From: Bacteroidota bacterium
GTDB taxonomy: Bacteria > Bacteroidota > Bacteroidia > Bacteroidales > B18-G4
Direction of reading: 5' to 3'
DNA length: 33,904 nucleotides
NCBI GenBank assembly: GCA_013202965.1
Contig: JABMQZ010000274.1
Span: 1 to 33,904 of the forward strand
Position numbers and translations under genes: made by a program. Below the pieces are notes generated by a model. That model made no database searches. It had not been told where the DNA came from and worked only from the letters and a program-made list of their open reading frames with translations. Shown here one piece after another: positions 8,213-24,520 of the stretch (position 1 is the first letter of the stretch; every line of letters starts with the position of its first letter).

Positions 8213-9214
8213 TTTATCAATGCTCATTAAGAGTGTGATCAGATCAACTACCCTGTTGGAATATCCCCATTCATTGTCGTACCAGTTCAGTGTCCTGACG
8301 ATTCTTTTGCCCAGCACTTTGGTATATTCGGGATCATAGATAGAGCTGTATGAGTTCCCTACTATATCTGACGAAACAATCATGTCTTCTGAATAAAGGA
8401 GGATATTTTCCATGCGTTTTGTTTTGGATGCAATCCTGACGGCAGCATTGATATCCTCGACCGTCACATCTTTTTCTACCTCGACCACCAGGTCGACAAC
8501 AGAGCCATCAGGAACAGGTACCCTGGAGGCCATACCATCCAGTTTACCTTTCAGAGCCGGAATAACCTGCCCTACAGCTTTGGCTGCACCGGTTGTGGTA
8601 GGAATGATATTCTCGGCTGCTGCACGGCCACGGCGCCAGTCCTTGTGCGGTACATCTGCCAGGCGCTGGTCATTGGTATATGCATGCGTTGTGGTCATGA
8701 GGCCTTCCTTTATACCGAAAGAGTCGTTGAGGACTTTGGCCATCGGTGCAAGGCAGTTGGTGGTACAACTGGCATTGGAGATGATCTTATGTTCCGGTTT
8801 CAATTCATCTTCATTTACACCCAGTACAACAGTACAATCAATTTCATCTTTGGCCGGCACGGTCAGGACAACCCTTTTCGCCCCTGCCCTGAGATGAGGT
8901 TCCAGCTTTTCCCTGGTGCGAAAGATCCCTGTAGCTTCTACCACTACATCAATATCCAGTTCTTTCCACGGGAGATCTTCAGGATCCCTGATACTCAGCA
9001 TTTTAACTTTTTCATGCGGTGTAACCAGGTAATCATCTACCAGTTTGATATCCTGGCCGAAGCCTGACATCACTGTATCATATTTCAGGAGGTATGCCAG
9101 CACCTCATCATCAAAGAGGTCGTTTATAGCAACCACATCAATGTCTTTCCTTGCATTCATGATCCTGAACACCGAGCGTCCGATCCTTCCGAATCCGTTT
9201 ATTGCTACTCTCAT
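8210..9214 (-). CDS. gapA: Glyceraldehyde-3-phosphate dehydrogenase, type I, catalytically complete
   Basis: This glycolytic/gluconeogenic enzyme oxidises glyceraldehyde-3-phosphate to 1,3-bisphosphoglycerate with NAD+. At 334 aa it has the standard length. The Rossmann motif INGFGRIGR is at the N-terminus. NDL, with Asp32, suggests NAD preference. The nucleophile lies in SNASCTTNC (Cys150) and the base in THAYTND (His177). The phosphate sites TTTGAAK and SRVPVPDG and the C-terminal WYDNEWGYSNRVVDL are intact. Its ATG overlaps the TGA of the upstream paralog by 4 bases (ATGA), and an AAGGAG sequence inside the end of that paralog lies 8 bases before the start. Expression is therefore probably translationally coupled to the paralog. 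Confidence 0.97.
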   Translation of the reverse strand: MRVAINGFGRIGRSVFRIMNARKDIDVVAINDLFDDEVLAYLLKYDTVMSGFGQDIKLVDDYLVTPHEKVKMLSIRDPEDLPWKELDIDVVVEATGIFRTREKLEPHLRAGAKRVVLTVPAKDEIDCTVVLGVNEDELKPEHKIISNASCTTNCLAPMAKVLNDSFGIKEGLMTTTHAYTNDQRLADVPHKDWRRGRAAAENIIPTTTGAAKAVGQVIPALKGKLDGMASRVPVPDGSVVDLVVEVEKDVTVEDINAAVRIASKTKRMENILLYSEDMIVSSDIVGNSYSSIYDPEYTKVLGKRIVRTLNWYDNEWGYSNRVVDLITLLMSIDK

Positions 9215-10233
9215 TTTCTGACTCCTTTCTTATCTAATTCATTATAGGCAATTATAGCATCTATGATCCTGCAGGCCGTTGCTAATGCAGTATGATACCA
9301 GCTAAGTGTCTTTACCATTCTAAGCGGTGAAATCAATGTTGCCTGCTTATCAAAAACCACGGAATGCCGGTCACCAATCACATCCGTGGAAACGATCGGA
9401 TCCGCTACAACCCTGACAACGGCAGGGTTCTTTTTTGCATACGCTTCAACAGCCTGATTAACCTGATCTTTTGTCACTCCTTTATCTTTAAGGATGGTGG
9501 TAAGGTCAAGCAATGATCCATTGGGTACCGGTACGTTCAGTGCAGAGCCGGCGATCCTTCCTTTAAATTCAGGCATAATATGCTGGATCCATTTCGGGCT
9601 CGGTGTTTCATTGGGAATAATATTTTCCGCTGCCGAACGGCTCCTCCTGAAGTCTGTACTCGCTTTATCTCGCAGAGGCTGATCTGAAGTATATGAATGT
9701 ACGGTGGTGAGCAGGGCATAGTCAATACCGAAAGCCTCATCAAGGACCTTCAGCATCAGTGCAGTTGCATTTGTGGTAGCCGAGCCTGCCGATATCAGGC
9801 GATCAGATACCTTCATGCTATGGTCGTTTACGCCCCTCACCACGATCCTGTCAATCTCATCAGATGGCAGAGTGGTAAGCATTACGCGTTTCGCCCCTGC
9901 CTCGAGGTGACGTTTCATATCAGCCCTTGATTTATATATACCTGTTCCATCAATAGCCACATCCACATCCAGCATATCCCATAATACATCACCGGGTTCC
10001 ATGCTTTTTCTCTCGATCATCCTGGCCCTGCCATTTTTAGAAACCAGGAAGTTCCCTTCCAGTTTCACATCAATACCTCCTTTGGTTTCAACTTTTAGAA
10101 GGTACTCGAGGATCTCGGGACGCCCAAGATCGGCAATGGCAACGATCTCTATCCGGTCATCATTGAGGCATAAACGGTAAATATGCCGCCCTACCTCTCC
10201 GAATCCCATAATTCCAACTCGAATCTTGTCCAT
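9211..10233 (-). CDS. GAPDH-fold paralog lacking the catalytic cysteine (probable pseudoenzyme)
   Basis: This 340-aa protein is clearly GAPDH-like along its full length: GFGEVGRHIYR Rossmann loop, IADLGR, DGTGIYKSR, EAGAKRVMLT, VHSYTSDQ, RRSRSAAENIIP and VPVPNGSLLDL. The active site is dismantled. SCTTN reads SATTN (Ala152, codon GCT at 9778-9780). The phosphate-binding TGAAK loop reads TPSPK. The substrate Arg in SRVPVP is Asn (ALNVPVP). The C-terminal YDNEWGYSN is YHTALATAC, which removes the Asn that contacts nicotinamide. The His (His179) and the NAD-binding Asp remain. The frame is open and well conserved, so it is not a decayed pseudogene. It overlaps gapA by 4 bases as the first gene of a two-gene operon, which suggests a stoichiometric partner, regulator or NAD(H) sensor. 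Another reaction is possible; I do not know its function. Confidence 0.88.
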   Translation of the reverse strand: MDKIRVGIMGFGEVGRHIYRLCLNDDRIEIVAIADLGRPEILEYLLKVETKGGIDVKLEGNFLVSKNGRARMIERKSMEPGDVLWDMLDVDVAIDGTGIYKSRADMKRHLEAGAKRVMLTTLPSDEIDRIVVRGVNDHSMKVSDRLISAGSATTNATALMLKVLDEAFGIDYALLTTVHSYTSDQPLRDKASTDFRRSRSAAENIIPNETPSPKWIQHIMPEFKGRIAGSALNVPVPNGSLLDLTTILKDKGVTKDQVNQAVEAYAKKNPAVVRVVADPIVSTDVIGDRHSVVFDKQATLISPLRMVKTLSWYHTALATACRIIDAIIAYNELDKKGVRK

Positions 10234-10261: not shown

Positions 10262-10278
10262 ACCTGAGCTAATCAGGT
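10262..10278. other. Hairpin in the 5' leader of the GAPDH operon
   Basis: ACCTGA-gctaa-TCAGGT is a perfect 6-bp stem with a 5-base loop. On the plus strand it is followed at once by six T. On the minus strand, where the gap operon is transcribed, a T5 run follows after GCA. It lies about 30 bases before the first GAPDH start and downstream of the predicted promoter, so it is in the mRNA leader. It could be an attenuator or an mRNA-stabilising stem. Confidence 0.4.
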
Positions 10279-18310: not shown

Positions 18311-20224
18311 ATGACAAACAAAATCACCAGTCTGCTGGAATATTTCCAGAAATACCAGGAAAGCGTTGACAATCCTGAAGGCTTCTGGGCAAATATTGCC
18401 GAAGACTATATCTGGAGAAAAAAATGGGATAAAGTTCTCGAATGGAACTTTACCGAACCAAACGTAAATTGGTTCGTGAATGGTAAACTGAACATCACTG
18501 AAAACATTTTCGAAAGGAACCTTCCACATCGGAAAGACCAGACTGCATTGCTCTGGGAACCCAATGACCCGAAAGAAGAAGCAATTTCCATCACCTATGG
18601 TGAATTGTACGAAAAAGTTAGCCAGTTTGCCAATGCCATGAAGAATCTGGGCGTTAAGAAAGGTGACCGTGTGTCCCTTTATCTTCCCATGATCCTCGAG
18701 CTTCCCGTTGCCATGCTCGCATGTGCCAGGATCGGGGCCATTCATTCCATCGTATTTGCAGGCTTTTCAGCCAATGCACTTGCCGACCGTATCAATGACT
18801 CACTCTGTAACCTTGTGATCACATCTGATGGTGGTTACCGTGGAACCAAGAGCATTCCGCTGAAAAGCATCGTAGACGAGGCAGTGAAAACATGCCCTTC
18901 AGTCAACAATGTGATCGTTTTCAACCGCACTGGCGAAGATATCAACTGGGTTGAAGGCAGAGATGTTTGGTGGCATGATGCCATTGATGGCATGGACACA
19001 GTTTGTGAAGCCGAAGAAATGGATGCCGAAGACACCCTCTTCATCCTCTATACATCAGGTTCAACAGGAAAACCAAAAGGCGTACTGCACACCGTTGCCG
19101 GATATATGATATTTGCCGAATACACATTTAAAAATGTATTCCAGTACAGCGAAGGCGACATCTTCTGGTGTACCGCCGACATTGGTTGGGTTACAGGCCA
19201 CTCATACATTGTTTATGGGCCACTGCTGACAGGCGCTGTTTCCGTTATGTTTGAAGGTGTTCCCACCTGGCCGGATGCAGGCAGATTCTGGGAAGTAGTA
19301 GAAAAACACAAGGTGAACCAGTTCTACACTGCTCCTACTGCAATCCGTGCCCTCATCGCCCAGGGTAATGAATTCGTTACCAAACATGACCGGAGCTCAT
19401 TAAAAGTGCTGGGTACTGTTGGTGAACCTATCAATGAGGAAGCATGGCGCTGGTATCATGACCTTATTGGTGAAGGAAGATGCCCCATCGTTGACACCTG
19501 GTGGCAGACCGAAACCGGTGGTATCATGATCACGCCTCTGGCAGGGATCACTCCTACCAAACCATCATTTGCCACATTGCCTCTGCCCGGTATTCAGCCT
19601 ATCCTGGTTGACCCTGAGGGCAAAGAACTTAAAGGCAATGGTGTGGAAGGAAACCTTTGCATTAAGTTCCCCTGGCCTGGAATGATCAGATCCCTTTATG
19701 GTGATCATGATCGTTGCTATCAAACTTACTTCTCAGCCTACAAAGACCTCTATTTCACCGGTGACGGTGCGAAACGTGATGAAGAAGGCTATTACAGGAT
19801 CATTGGCCGTGTTGATGACGTAATCAACGTATCAGGCCACAGGATCGGTACCGCCGAGGTGGAAGATGCCATCAACCAGCACCCAAAAGTTATTGAGTCA
19901 GCTGTTGTAGGTTATCCTCATGAGATCAAAGGAGCCGGCATCTATGCATATGTGATCTGCGATGAGCTTTCAGAAGATGAAGCCAATAATATTGAGAAAG
20001 AGATCCGGGCTACTGTGACCAAGTATATCGGACCCATCGCAAAACCGGATATGATCCAGGTCGTAAACGGGCTGCCAAAAACCCGTTCAGGTAAGATCAT
20101 GAGAAGGATACTGCGTAAAATTGGTGAAGGTGATGCCACCAACCTCGGTGACACCTCCACACTTCTCGATCCGGGCGTTGTTGAAGACATCATCTCCGGA
20201 GCAAAAGTTGAAGTAAAACGTTAA
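18311..20224 (+). CDS. acs: Acetyl-CoA synthetase, AMP-forming
   Basis: This 637-aa cytoplasmic enzyme activates acetate: acetate + ATP + CoA gives acetyl-CoA + AMP + PPi. Motifs appear in order: the ATP-binding P-loop ILYTSGSTGKPKG; CTADIGWVTGHSYIVYGPL; DTWWQTETGG, whose Trp limits the acyl pocket to acetate-sized substrates; YFTGDGA and GRVDDVINVSGHRIGTAEVE at the domain hinge; and PKTRSGKIMRR, whose Lys595 (codon 20093-20095) is the adenylation lysine that protein acetyltransferases modify in other bacteria. The full family length is present. It lies between the porin and MFS genes, with an intrinsic terminator just after it. A Pat-like acetyltransferase domain is encoded 1.6 kb downstream. 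Confidence 0.97.
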   Translation: MTNKITSLLEYFQKYQESVDNPEGFWANIAEDYIWRKKWDKVLEWNFTEPNVNWFVNGKLNITENIFERNLPHRKDQTALLWEPNDPKEEAISITYGELYEKVSQFANAMKNLGVKKGDRVSLYLPMILELPVAMLACARIGAIHSIVFAGFSANALADRINDSLCNLVITSDGGYRGTKSIPLKSIVDEAVKTCPSVNNVIVFNRTGEDINWVEGRDVWWHDAIDGMDTVCEAEEMDAEDTLFILYTSGSTGKPKGVLHTVAGYMIFAEYTFKNVFQYSEGDIFWCTADIGWVTGHSYIVYGPLLTGAVSVMFEGVPTWPDAGRFWEVVEKHKVNQFYTAPTAIRALIAQGNEFVTKHDRSSLKVLGTVGEPINEEAWRWYHDLIGEGRCPIVDTWWQTETGGIMITPLAGITPTKPSFATLPLPGIQPILVDPEGKELKGNGVEGNLCIKFPWPGMIRSLYGDHDRCYQTYFSAYKDLYFTGDGAKRDEEGYYRIIGRVDDVINVSGHRIGTAEVEDAINQHPKVIESAVVGYPHEIKGAGIYAYVICDELSEDEANNIEKEIRATVTKYIGPIAKPDMIQVVNGLPKTRSGKIMRRILRKIGEGDATNLGDTSTLLDPGVVEDIISGAKVEVKR

Positions 20225-21823: not shown

Positions 21824-24520
21824 ATGCCCATCAAAACACTTCAAAAAATTTTCAGGCCAAAAAGGATTGCCCTGATCGGAGTTTCCAATAATCCCGACAG
21901 TGTTGCAGGAATCGTTTTGAAAAACCTCGTAGGAGCAGGCTTCCAGGGAGTGGTGTATCCCATCAACCCAAAGTATGAAGCAGTAATGGGGATCAGTTGC
22001 TACCCTGATATCAAGAGTGTTCCGAAAACACCTGATCTGGCAGTGATCGCAATATCGGCCCATCGCGTACCACAGCTGATTAAAGAATGTGGCGAAGCAG
22101 GGGTACTCGGTATTATTATCATGTCGGCCGGATTTAAAGAGTCAGGAGAAGAAGGCCGCCAGCTGGAAGAGCAGGTAAAAGCCGAAGTGGCCAAATATGA
22201 AGGCATGCGGGTAATCGGGCCGAACTGCCTCGGGATCATTGTTCCCGGACTCAATATGAATGTCAGCTTCGCAGCCAATATGCCAAAGAAAGGCAATGTG
22301 GCTTTCATCTCACAATCAGGAGCCCTCTGCACTTCAGTGCTCGACTGGGCCATAGAACAAAACATCGGTTTCTCTGATTTTGTTTCCATCGGGAACAGCA
22401 TGGATGTGGGTTTCGGCGACCTGATCGATTATTTCGGGCAGGATCCCAATACCAAATCTATCGTCCTTTATGTTGAAAGTATCACTTTTGCACGTGAATT
22501 TATGACGGCTGCCCGTGCCTTTGCCCGTAATAAGCCTATCATCGTTTATAAAGCAGGACGGTACCCGGAGTCGGCGGCTGCAGCAGCATCCCATACCGGC
22601 GCCATGGCCTCTGAGGACAATATTTACGATGCAGTATTTGAACGTGCAGGGATTGCAAGGGTATATGATATTGGGGATATATTTGATTTTACCGACCTTA
22701 TTTCCAGAAGAAATATTCCGAAAGGATCAAAACTTGCCATCGTTACCAATGCCGGTGGTCCCGGGGTAATGGCTACCGATATGCTTATCTCAAAAGGAGG
22801 TATGCTTACAAAACTTTCAGAGGAAACCATGAATAAACTGAATGAGGTTCTTCCCCCATTCTGGTCCCATGGAAATCCTGTAGATGTAATCGGAGACGCT
22901 ACGCCACAAAGATTTTCCGATGCAACGGATATTGTCCTCCAGGATGAAAAAGTGGATGCCGTTCTGGTAATACTCACTCCACAGGCCATGACTGCACCCA
23001 CGAAAACAGCCGAAGCTATTGTCAAGCTTTCTGAACACCATTCCAAACCCATCATGGCAGCATGGTTGGGAGGTCATAGCATGAAGGGCGGGATAGAAGT
23101 ATTCCTGAACAAAGGCATTTCAGTTTATTCAACTCCTGAGCAGGCGATCAGAGCATTTATGACCCTTGCCAAGTACTCCAGGAATCTGGGCATTCTTTTT
23201 GAAACACCAAGAGACATTCCGTTTTCCTTTGAACTTGACCGTGCCAAAGTCAGAAAGGAATATGCCAGCAAATACTTCAAAAAAAAGGACGCTATTCTAT
23301 CCGAAGATATTTCAAAAATCCTGATCGATGCCTACGGAATAAAAACTACAAAACCGCAGCCTGCATATTCAGCACTTGAAGCTGCCGACATAGCAAATAA
23401 AATTGGCTATCCGGTAGTGTTGAAGATCCTGTCACCCGATATCACACACAAATCAGATATTGGTGGTGTGGTGCTCAACATCAAAGATGAGAACTCGGTA
23501 TGGATGACATACAAAAATATGACAGAAAGCATCAGCAAGAAAATGCCTGAAGCCACCATTGAAGGAGTCACGGTTCAGCCCATGTTCAATGCCAAGGATG
23601 CAGTGGAACTGATTATGGGGATAAAAAAAGATCCTGTCTTCGGCACCTGTATGATGATCGGAATGGGAGGAACTGCAGCTGAGCTTTTTAAGGATAAATC
23701 ACTCGGCTTCCCTCCTTTGAATGAAAGGCTGGCAAGAAGGATGCTCGAAAATCTGAAAATATATCCCCTTCTGAAGGGATATCGCGGCAGCAAACCAAAG
23801 AATATAGAAAAATTGATCGAGATCATGATCAGGATGTCTTACCTTGCTGCAGACTACCCTGAGATTGCCGAGCTTGATATCAACCCCTTGCTGGTTACAC
23901 CGGAAGATGTCATTGCTCTTGATGCACGCATCGTTCTGGACGATAAAGTTGTGGGGAAGAAAATTCCAGAGTATTCCCACCTCTTGCTTCATCCTTATCC
24001 GGAAAAGCTGATAAAAAAATCAAAGTTGAGCGATGGTACGATCATTAGCATGCGTCCGATCAAACCGGAAGACGAACCCCTCTGGCTTGAATTACTGGGC
24101 AGTTGTTCAAAAGAGTCAATATATTCACGTTTTCGCTACAATTTCCATTTCGACTCTCATGAAGTTGCAACACAATTCTGCTATATTGATTATGCCAGGG
24201 AAATTGGGATTGTTGTAGAAATTAAAGACAAAGGAAAGAAAAAGCTTATCGGGGTAGGCCGTTTAATCGCCGACCCGGACCTGACATCGGTGGAATATGC
24301 CATCCTTATAACAGATGATTACCAGAAAAGGGAGTTGGGCACCATCCTGACTACCTATTGTGAAACAATCGCCAGGAATTGGAAGATGAAACGCATATTC
24401 GCAGAAACCACCAAAGACAACAAAGCCATGATATCCGTTTTCAAAAAGCTTGGTTTTGAGGTAAGCTATAACCAGGATACTACGGTGAGTGTTTCGAAGA
24501 CCCTTAAGAATAACGAATAA
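21824..24520 (+). CDS. ADP-forming acyl-CoA synthetase fused to a GNAT acetyltransferase domain
   Basis: This 898-aa protein contains, in order: a CoA-binding domain (about 1-130, RPKRIALIGVSNNP), a succinyl-CoA-ligase-like domain (150-290), a second ligase domain (305-460), an ATP-grasp domain (490-710, YPVVLKILSPDITHKSDIGGV), and a C-terminal GNAT domain (735-898). ADP-forming synthetases make acetyl-CoA from acetate, ATP and CoA reversibly through a phospho-histidine. That His is present in AASHTGAMAS (His257), so this half looks active. The GNAT domain keeps the Glu of VEYAILITDD (about 824), in the position of the catalytic Glu of the Pat lysine acetyltransferase. Its CoA loop QKRELGT is diverged from the usual GxG. 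Architecture equals enterobacterial Pat, which acetylates Acs. Its last codons are part of a tandem repeat. Confidence 0.88.
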   Translation: MPIKTLQKIFRPKRIALIGVSNNPDSVAGIVLKNLVGAGFQGVVYPINPKYEAVMGISCYPDIKSVPKTPDLAVIAISAHRVPQLIKECGEAGVLGIIIMSAGFKESGEEGRQLEEQVKAEVAKYEGMRVIGPNCLGIIVPGLNMNVSFAANMPKKGNVAFISQSGALCTSVLDWAIEQNIGFSDFVSIGNSMDVGFGDLIDYFGQDPNTKSIVLYVESITFAREFMTAARAFARNKPIIVYKAGRYPESAAAAASHTGAMASEDNIYDAVFERAGIARVYDIGDIFDFTDLISRRNIPKGSKLAIVTNAGGPGVMATDMLISKGGMLTKLSEETMNKLNEVLPPFWSHGNPVDVIGDATPQRFSDATDIVLQDEKVDAVLVILTPQAMTAPTKTAEAIVKLSEHHSKPIMAAWLGGHSMKGGIEVFLNKGISVYSTPEQAIRAFMTLAKYSRNLGILFETPRDIPFSFELDRAKVRKEYASKYFKKKDAILSEDISKILIDAYGIKTTKPQPAYSALEAADIANKIGYPVVLKILSPDITHKSDIGGVVLNIKDENSVWMTYKNMTESISKKMPEATIEGVTVQPMFNAKDAVELIMGIKKDPVFGTCMMIGMGGTAAELFKDKSLGFPPLNERLARRMLENLKIYPLLKGYRGSKPKNIEKLIEIMIRMSYLAADYPEIAELDINPLLVTPEDVIALDARIVLDDKVVGKKIPEYSHLLLHPYPEKLIKKSKLSDGTIISMRPIKPEDEPLWLELLGSCSKESIYSRFRYNFHFDSHEVATQFCYIDYAREIGIVVEIKDKGKKKLIGVGRLIADPDLTSVEYAILITDDYQKRELGTILTTYCETIARNWKMKRIFAETTKDNKAMISVFKKLGFEVSYNQDTTVSVSKTLKNNE

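Follow-up and report, generated by a model that had tools for sequence, protein, structure and literature searches.

GAPDH is among the best-studied enzymes, and it is taught either as a homotetramer or as the plant A2B2 enzyme made of two live chains. The plant GapA and GapB subunits are both catalytic. The R interface consists of NAD-contacting residues together with the S-loop (PMC5119734). S-loop residue 188 reaches over the R axis to touch the coenzyme bound by the opposite subunit (PMC3728087). In the trypanosomatid prozymes an active enzyme is accompanied by a dead paralog. Deoxyhypusine synthase gains 3000-fold in activity when the heterotetramer forms (PMC3663545), and the AdoMetDC prozyme relieves autoinhibition (PMC5201418). 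We found no Cys-less GAPDH, GAPDH pseudoenzyme or mixed live/dead GAPDH described in the open-access literature searched.

The window considered here is a stretch of 33,904 nucleotides from a Bacteroidota assembly of 3.3 Mb in 284 contigs, which its relatives suggest is a Bacteroidales MAG. It carries two overlapping GAPDH genes (Table 1). The downstream one is gapA, and GapX is our label for the product of the upstream open reading frame. We argue that GapX is the dead partner subunit of an A2X2-like GapA/GapX hetero-oligomer and that it shapes the NAD site of GapA across the R axis. We put the probability of this at roughly 0.68. The case is built from sequence: the loss of catalytic residues, purifying selection, the pairing of the genes, their overlap and its Shine-Dalgarno (SD) sequence, the retention of the S-loop and the divergence of the partner at its R/Q interfaces.

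Table 1. Features of the gapX/gapA locus, in window coordinates
Feature	Position	Strand	Evidence
gapX, dead paralog of type I GAPDH (340 aa)	9211..10233	-	ORF, Pfam/NCBIfam, 69-member Cys-less family, AF2, Foldseek
gapA, intact type I GAPDH, 334 aa	8210..9214	-	Above TIGR01534 cut-off; belongs to a clade restricted to GapX carriers among the genomes examined
ATGA stop/start overlap of gapX and gapA, putative termination-reinitiation site	9211..9214	-	Overlap -4 in 57/66 pairs, -1 in 6 more
AGAAAGGAG, putative intragenic Shine-Dalgarno for gapA within the gapX 3' end	9222..9230	-	SD hexamer, GGA codon and complementarity counts
Ala152 codon, catalytic Cys position (SATTN)	9778..9780	-	Ala 55, Ser 12, Gly 1, Pro 1, Cys 0 of 69
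Asn233 codon, in place of the substrate-phosphate Arg (Arg231)	9535..9537	-	67/68 GapX have Asn; 65/65 partners have Arg
S-loop at the R-axis interface, the region that GapX conserves best	9616..9693	-	15/24 GapA-fixed sites kept vs 57/172 overall
Glu13 codon (R10E, dinucleotide loop)	10195..10197	-	Glu in 58/68 GapX
Arg188 codon (GapA position 186), S-loop	9670..9672	-	Covaries with Glu13

A Cys-less GAPDH family

Pfam recognises both GAPDH domains in GapX (Gp_dh_C, PF02800, 1.9e-43; Gp_dh_N, PF00044, 1.2e-15). Against the NCBIfam type I GAPDH equivalog TIGR01534, whose cut-off is 367.2 bits, it falls below at 272.8 whereas GapA scores 443.6. The AF2 monomer models have pLDDT values of 90.3 for GapX and 89.4 for GapA, and Foldseek matches the GapX model to GAPDHs with TM scores of 0.86-0.89. 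The original prediction described a Cys-less GAPDH frame overlapping an intact gapA by four bases, and the ORF coordinates bear this out; the shared bases are ATGA. The motif losses it listed are present (SATTN with Ala152, TPSP, LNVPVP and YHTALATAC). The active-site His (His179) and the Rossmann-fold acidic residue, which it described as kept, are there too.

Within the host order, 35 of the 393 genomes examined have GapX, each in a single copy. The partner clade of GapA is present in 34 of them and in no other genome of the 393; in the 35th, GapX is truncated, apparently by the end of a contig. Sampling across the phylum gave no GapX in the other 296 genomes. Among 60 relatives there were 10 further carriers, every one Cys-less and overlapping gapA by the same 4 bp. 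When 84,980 species genomes were scanned, 68 GapX loci stood among the best 80 matches, and below about 41% identity there is a clear drop to ordinary GAPDHs. These loci belong to Bacteroidota, Candidatus Neomarinimicrobiota and Gammaproteobacteria (Halieaceae and Pseudomonadales, including a record titled Halioglobus japonicus). The carriers are mostly uncultured bacteria of these three phyla, and nearly all the genomes are metagenome-assembled. In two genomes of unstated completeness (G697 and G701) the pair is the only Gp_dh_C found.

Two other GAPDH-like items should be recorded. Most carriers have an additional long GAPDH-like protein besides the pair (about 490-550 aa; for example G000:C80, the contig of locus L003). 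The sole genome of the same family without a full GapX match is 83% complete, and it holds a short GAPDH-like fragment (G008:C15:7336-7485) that may belong to a truncated pair.

Cys is absent from its catalytic position in all 69 homologues. The substrate-phosphate Arg231 has become Asn almost throughout the family (Table 1), and the full active site is kept in all 65 readable partner GapA proteins. Gly209 of the Pi loop (TGAAK) is replaced, mostly by Pro or Ile. The losses of Cys, Arg231 and Gly209 are thus family traits. The predicted loss of the nicotinamide Asn is not, since 21 of 69 homologues retain it. GapX clades differ from one another in the Pi loop and in the C-terminal segment that corresponds to YDNEWGYSN. 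The dinucleotide loop, which the prediction had not mentioned, is altered as well. Its R10 is usually Glu, its third Gly is replaced in 35 of 68 sequences (often by Pro, Asn or Ser), N6 is mostly Met or Lys, and N31 is replaced in all.

These residues bear on two other readings. GapX might be an NAD(H)- or metabolite-sensing regulator that acts independently of GapA, its target lying for instance in transcription or signalling; an NAD(H) sensor was one of the original suggestions. The Rossmann fold is kept and position 32 is always acidic (Asp 56, Glu 12), and in Neomarinimicrobiota a gene for a TrmB-like sugar regulator precedes the pair. However, no regulator is a common neighbour across clades. 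Because the dinucleotide loop is degraded, a free-standing sensor is less favoured, and we consider it very improbable.

The second reading gives GapX a new function on the GAPDH fold, as an enzyme or a binding protein with another ligand or a non-thiol chemistry, and has it co-expressed with GapA only through a common pathway. Six residues (His177, Tyr179, Thr180, Asp182, Gln183 and Arg197 in GapA numbering) are invariant in 69/69, and the conservation of His177, Thr180, Asp182 and Gln183 is more than a pure scaffold strictly needs. R231N, A213W and C154A are newly fixed near the active site. Yet the Cys site offers no conserved nucleophile (Ala, Ser, Gly or Pro), and one would not look for clade-to-clade differences in the Pi loop and C-terminal segment of such an enzyme. 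The stretch from His177 to Gln183 opens the S-loop, and the interface may be the reason for its retention. Nor would an independent enzyme be expected to pair with a single clade of GapA. We regard this reading as unlikely.

Selection and history

GapX is under purifying selection. Its dN/dS is 0.02-0.19 (NG86, pairs with usable dS) and that of the partner GapA is similar. In the tree GapX forms one clade (SH-aLRT 100) and the partner GapA another (SH-aLRT 98). The two clades are separate and have matching internal groups, from which we conclude that the pair is ancient and moves as one. As with a prozyme, a dead paralog is found while the active enzyme is kept in the same genome, and the dead copy is under purifying selection and co-inherited with the active one.

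One objection is that GapX is a duplicate in decay or a product of misassembly. Active-site residues have been lost, and nearly all carriers come from metagenome assemblies. But the same losses recur in 69 open frames from three phyla, dN/dS is far below 1 and the family is one old clade. This rules the idea out for practical purposes; we give it next to no chance. The original prediction was of a selected pseudoenzyme, and it had named what would speak for and against it. Adjacency to gapA with a residue other than Cys at position 152 was sought in Bacteroidota; it was found there and also in Neomarinimicrobiota and Gammaproteobacteria. Homologues with a restored Cys were sought and number 0 of 69, a dN/dS near 1 was not observed, and independent contigs exclude an error in the Ala codon. 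These comparisons strongly support a real pseudoenzyme maintained by selection. GapX very probably works together with GapA, which is intact beside it in all three phyla.

The overlap and its Shine-Dalgarno sequence

The genes overlap by -4 or -1 in nearly all of the 66 pairs (Table 1). Among the remaining three, L095 and L099 have uncertain starts and L101 has a gap of 17 nt. An SD hexamer precedes gapA in 41/42 Bacteroidota pairs, compared with 6/230 other genes. Complementarity to the 16S tail of at least 9 nt precedes it in 36/42 against 0/221 other genes, where the tail is assumed to be the Bacteroidota one and its GGAACACCTCCTTT core (the canonical anti-SD) was seen in one carrier, G376. 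The 16S tail was looked for in the source MAG and not found. Before the start of gapX itself even an SD 5-mer is present in only 2 of 43 Bacteroidota carriers, and the other ATGA overlaps in these loci have an SD in 0/3 cases. The Gly codon inside the SD is GGA in 42/42 sequences versus 134/407 (33%) of internal Gly codons, and therefore selection acts on the nucleotides here. With its -4/-1 overlap and an SD within the upstream gene, gapX/gapA fits a translationally coupled pair.

Such an SD is unusual for this phylum. In Bacteroidetes fewer than 10% of overlapping pairs have one (PMC6728339). Bacteroidia ribosomes are reported to fail to recognise the SD, with extended SDs such as that of rpsU as an exception (PMC9976891). 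The gapA SD resembles the rpsU one in its unusually long complementarity where ribosomes reportedly ignore the SD, but it differs in lying inside a coding gene, at the restart site of a metabolic gene. No Bacteroidales met the rpsU criteria of that study (PMC9976891). It is possible that gapA is a further gene, besides rpsU and rpsR, whose SD is read in Bacteroidota (window 9222-9230; gapX 3' ends of L035-L102). The conserved extended SD at the Bacteroidales gapA restart makes SD reading by Bacteroidia ribosomes directly testable.

One could take this further and argue that GapX is mainly a translational cis-regulator of gapA, or a folding helper. Its translation would set the rate at which ribosomes restart and the protein would be of minor importance. 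The nucleotide-level selection on a strong intragenic SD is in line with this, and so is an overlap that stays fixed in a phylum where SDs seldom accompany overlaps. But a leader would not need 340 aa at such a dN/dS with the S-loop selectively preserved. The overlap also persists without a strong SD in L088/L096 and in part of the gammaproteobacterial clade. This makes a purely cis-acting role quite improbable. A hetero-oligomer would suit the overlap as well: -4/-1 overlaps are enriched 4.5-fold in E. coli for subunits of heteromeric complexes, although about 70% of overlapping E. coli gene pairs do not encode complexes (PMC10666635).

The subunit interface

One comparison is of the sites that are fixed in GapA. 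GapX keeps 15/24 of them in the S-loop versus 57/172 overall (p 1.5e-3), with interface boundaries that are approximate, having been transferred from one crystal-structure paper by residue offset. It keeps 4/14 in the active site and 5/17 in the NAD loops. The strands of the P interface show no special conservation in GapX (5/21). Overall GapX is equally far from its partner GapA (identity 0.38) and from ordinary GAPDHs (0.37). In segment 191-204 the identity of GapX to its partner is 0.72, compared with 0.57 to other GAPDHs, and that of the partner to other GAPDHs is 0.63. It must be noted that the S-loop residues common to GapX and GapA could reflect shared ancestry instead of coevolution.

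There is also covariation within GapX between the dinucleotide loop and the S-loop, and it has no exceptions. The 58 sequences with Glu10 have Arg186, and the 10 others have Gln or Leu. This may be a single event, since the sequences without Glu10 are largely one part of the tree. In the partner GapA position 186 is Ala in 66/66, and in other GAPDHs it is Leu, His, Ile or Gln. When the partner is compared with ordinary GAPDHs (32 sequences, nearly all Bacteroidota), 8 sites are fixed in a partner-specific way. Five of these (41, 49, 186, 188 and 202) are in the R/Q interface stretches, which span 54/334 columns.

The retention of the S-loop, the covariation and the R/Q divergence of the partner fit an A2X2 tetramer in which A and X would touch across R and Q. 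A hetero-tetramer with GapA was among the original suggestions. It is the one that best fits the interface evidence, and the assembly itself is what we infer. A low-confidence S-loop in the AF2 monomer of GapX was considered as a sign that it needs a partner. We dropped this because the GapA control behaves the same way (182-198).

Genomic context

In Neomarinimicrobiota the gene order is TrmB-like regulator, gapX, gapA, GH57 4-alpha-glucanotransferase and glucan phosphorylase, which is likely a glycolysis/storage-glucan operon. In each of the 11 Neomarinimicrobiota loci examined (L071-L086) the regulator gene lies directly ahead of gapX, at a distance of about 75 bp. In two Halieaceae loci PEP carboxylase follows the pair, and in one of them KDPG aldolase comes before it. 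The Bacteroidales neighbours are housekeeping genes. In the window lepA is divergent from gapX, and a RelA/SpoT homologue, a Fur-family regulator and adenylosuccinate synthetase are further on. Neighbours common to all clades were sought as a functional clue, and none was found besides the pair itself. The gene context points to central carbon metabolism as the place where the pair works.

Other features of the window can be listed here. The intergenic region between gapX and lepA has a small inverted repeat with T-runs, terminator-like on both strands (10262-10278). An acetyl-CoA-synthetase-like gene is at 18311-20224. Two genes after it, at 21824-24520, is an ADP-forming acyl-CoA-synthetase-like protein with a GNAT acetyltransferase domain (Pfam).

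A proposed dead subunit in a live enzyme

We argue that the best explanation of the pair would run as follows. GapX would be retained as a subunit that GapA cannot do without, an obligate partner. The genes gapX and gapA would be transcribed on one mRNA. Termination and reinitiation at the ATGA, aided by the extended SD inside gapX, would give a near-fixed ratio of the two proteins. They would then form a hetero-oligomer, in the simplest case an A2X2 tetramer, whose active sites would come from GapA. Across the R axis, the S-loop of GapX would form part of the pocket in which the GapA subunit binds its coenzyme. GapX could thereby tune the NAD binding, activity or stability of a main glycolytic/gluconeogenic GAPDH in the manner of a prozyme. 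The most specific proposal we make is that the GapX S-loop controls the coenzyme site of GapA.

A broader version seems to us slightly favoured over its negation. On this view obligate live/dead hetero-oligomers would form a class of bacterial GAPDH that has so far gone undescribed. It would extend over three phyla, and some cells would have no other GAPDH. The S-loop of GapX would both complete and regulate the live coenzyme site, and the subunit ratio would be set by an extended-SD restart in bacteria that hardly use the SD. If this is true, it is a bacterial case from central metabolism of an enzyme controlled by a pseudoenzyme. It would also be a natural test of half-of-sites behaviour and of cross-subunit coenzyme control. 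The automatic annotation of GapX-type proteins as GAPDH would need correcting.

Comparison with known systems

GapX shares its fold, length, S-loop and active-site His and Thr with type I GAPDH (TIGR01534; B. stearothermophilus 1gd1 and the C149A mutant 1npt). It differs in having neither the Cys nor Arg231, in its altered Pi and dinucleotide loops and in scoring below the family cut-off. In the chloroplast A2B2 hetero-oligomer (GapA/GapB) the S-loop of one subunit extends over the R axis to its neighbour's coenzyme (PMC3728087), and the same would hold for GapX/GapA if assembled. Unlike the plant subunits GapX is dead and bacterial, and it has no long C-terminal extension of the GapB kind. 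There is a parallel with the trypanosomatid prozymes, the deoxyhypusine synthase prozyme DHSp and the AdoMetDC prozyme, in that each is a dead paralog of its active partner. Those are eukaryotic enzymes of the polyamine pathway, whereas GapX belongs to bacteria and central glycolysis, is encoded in an overlapping gene pair and is known here from its sequence.
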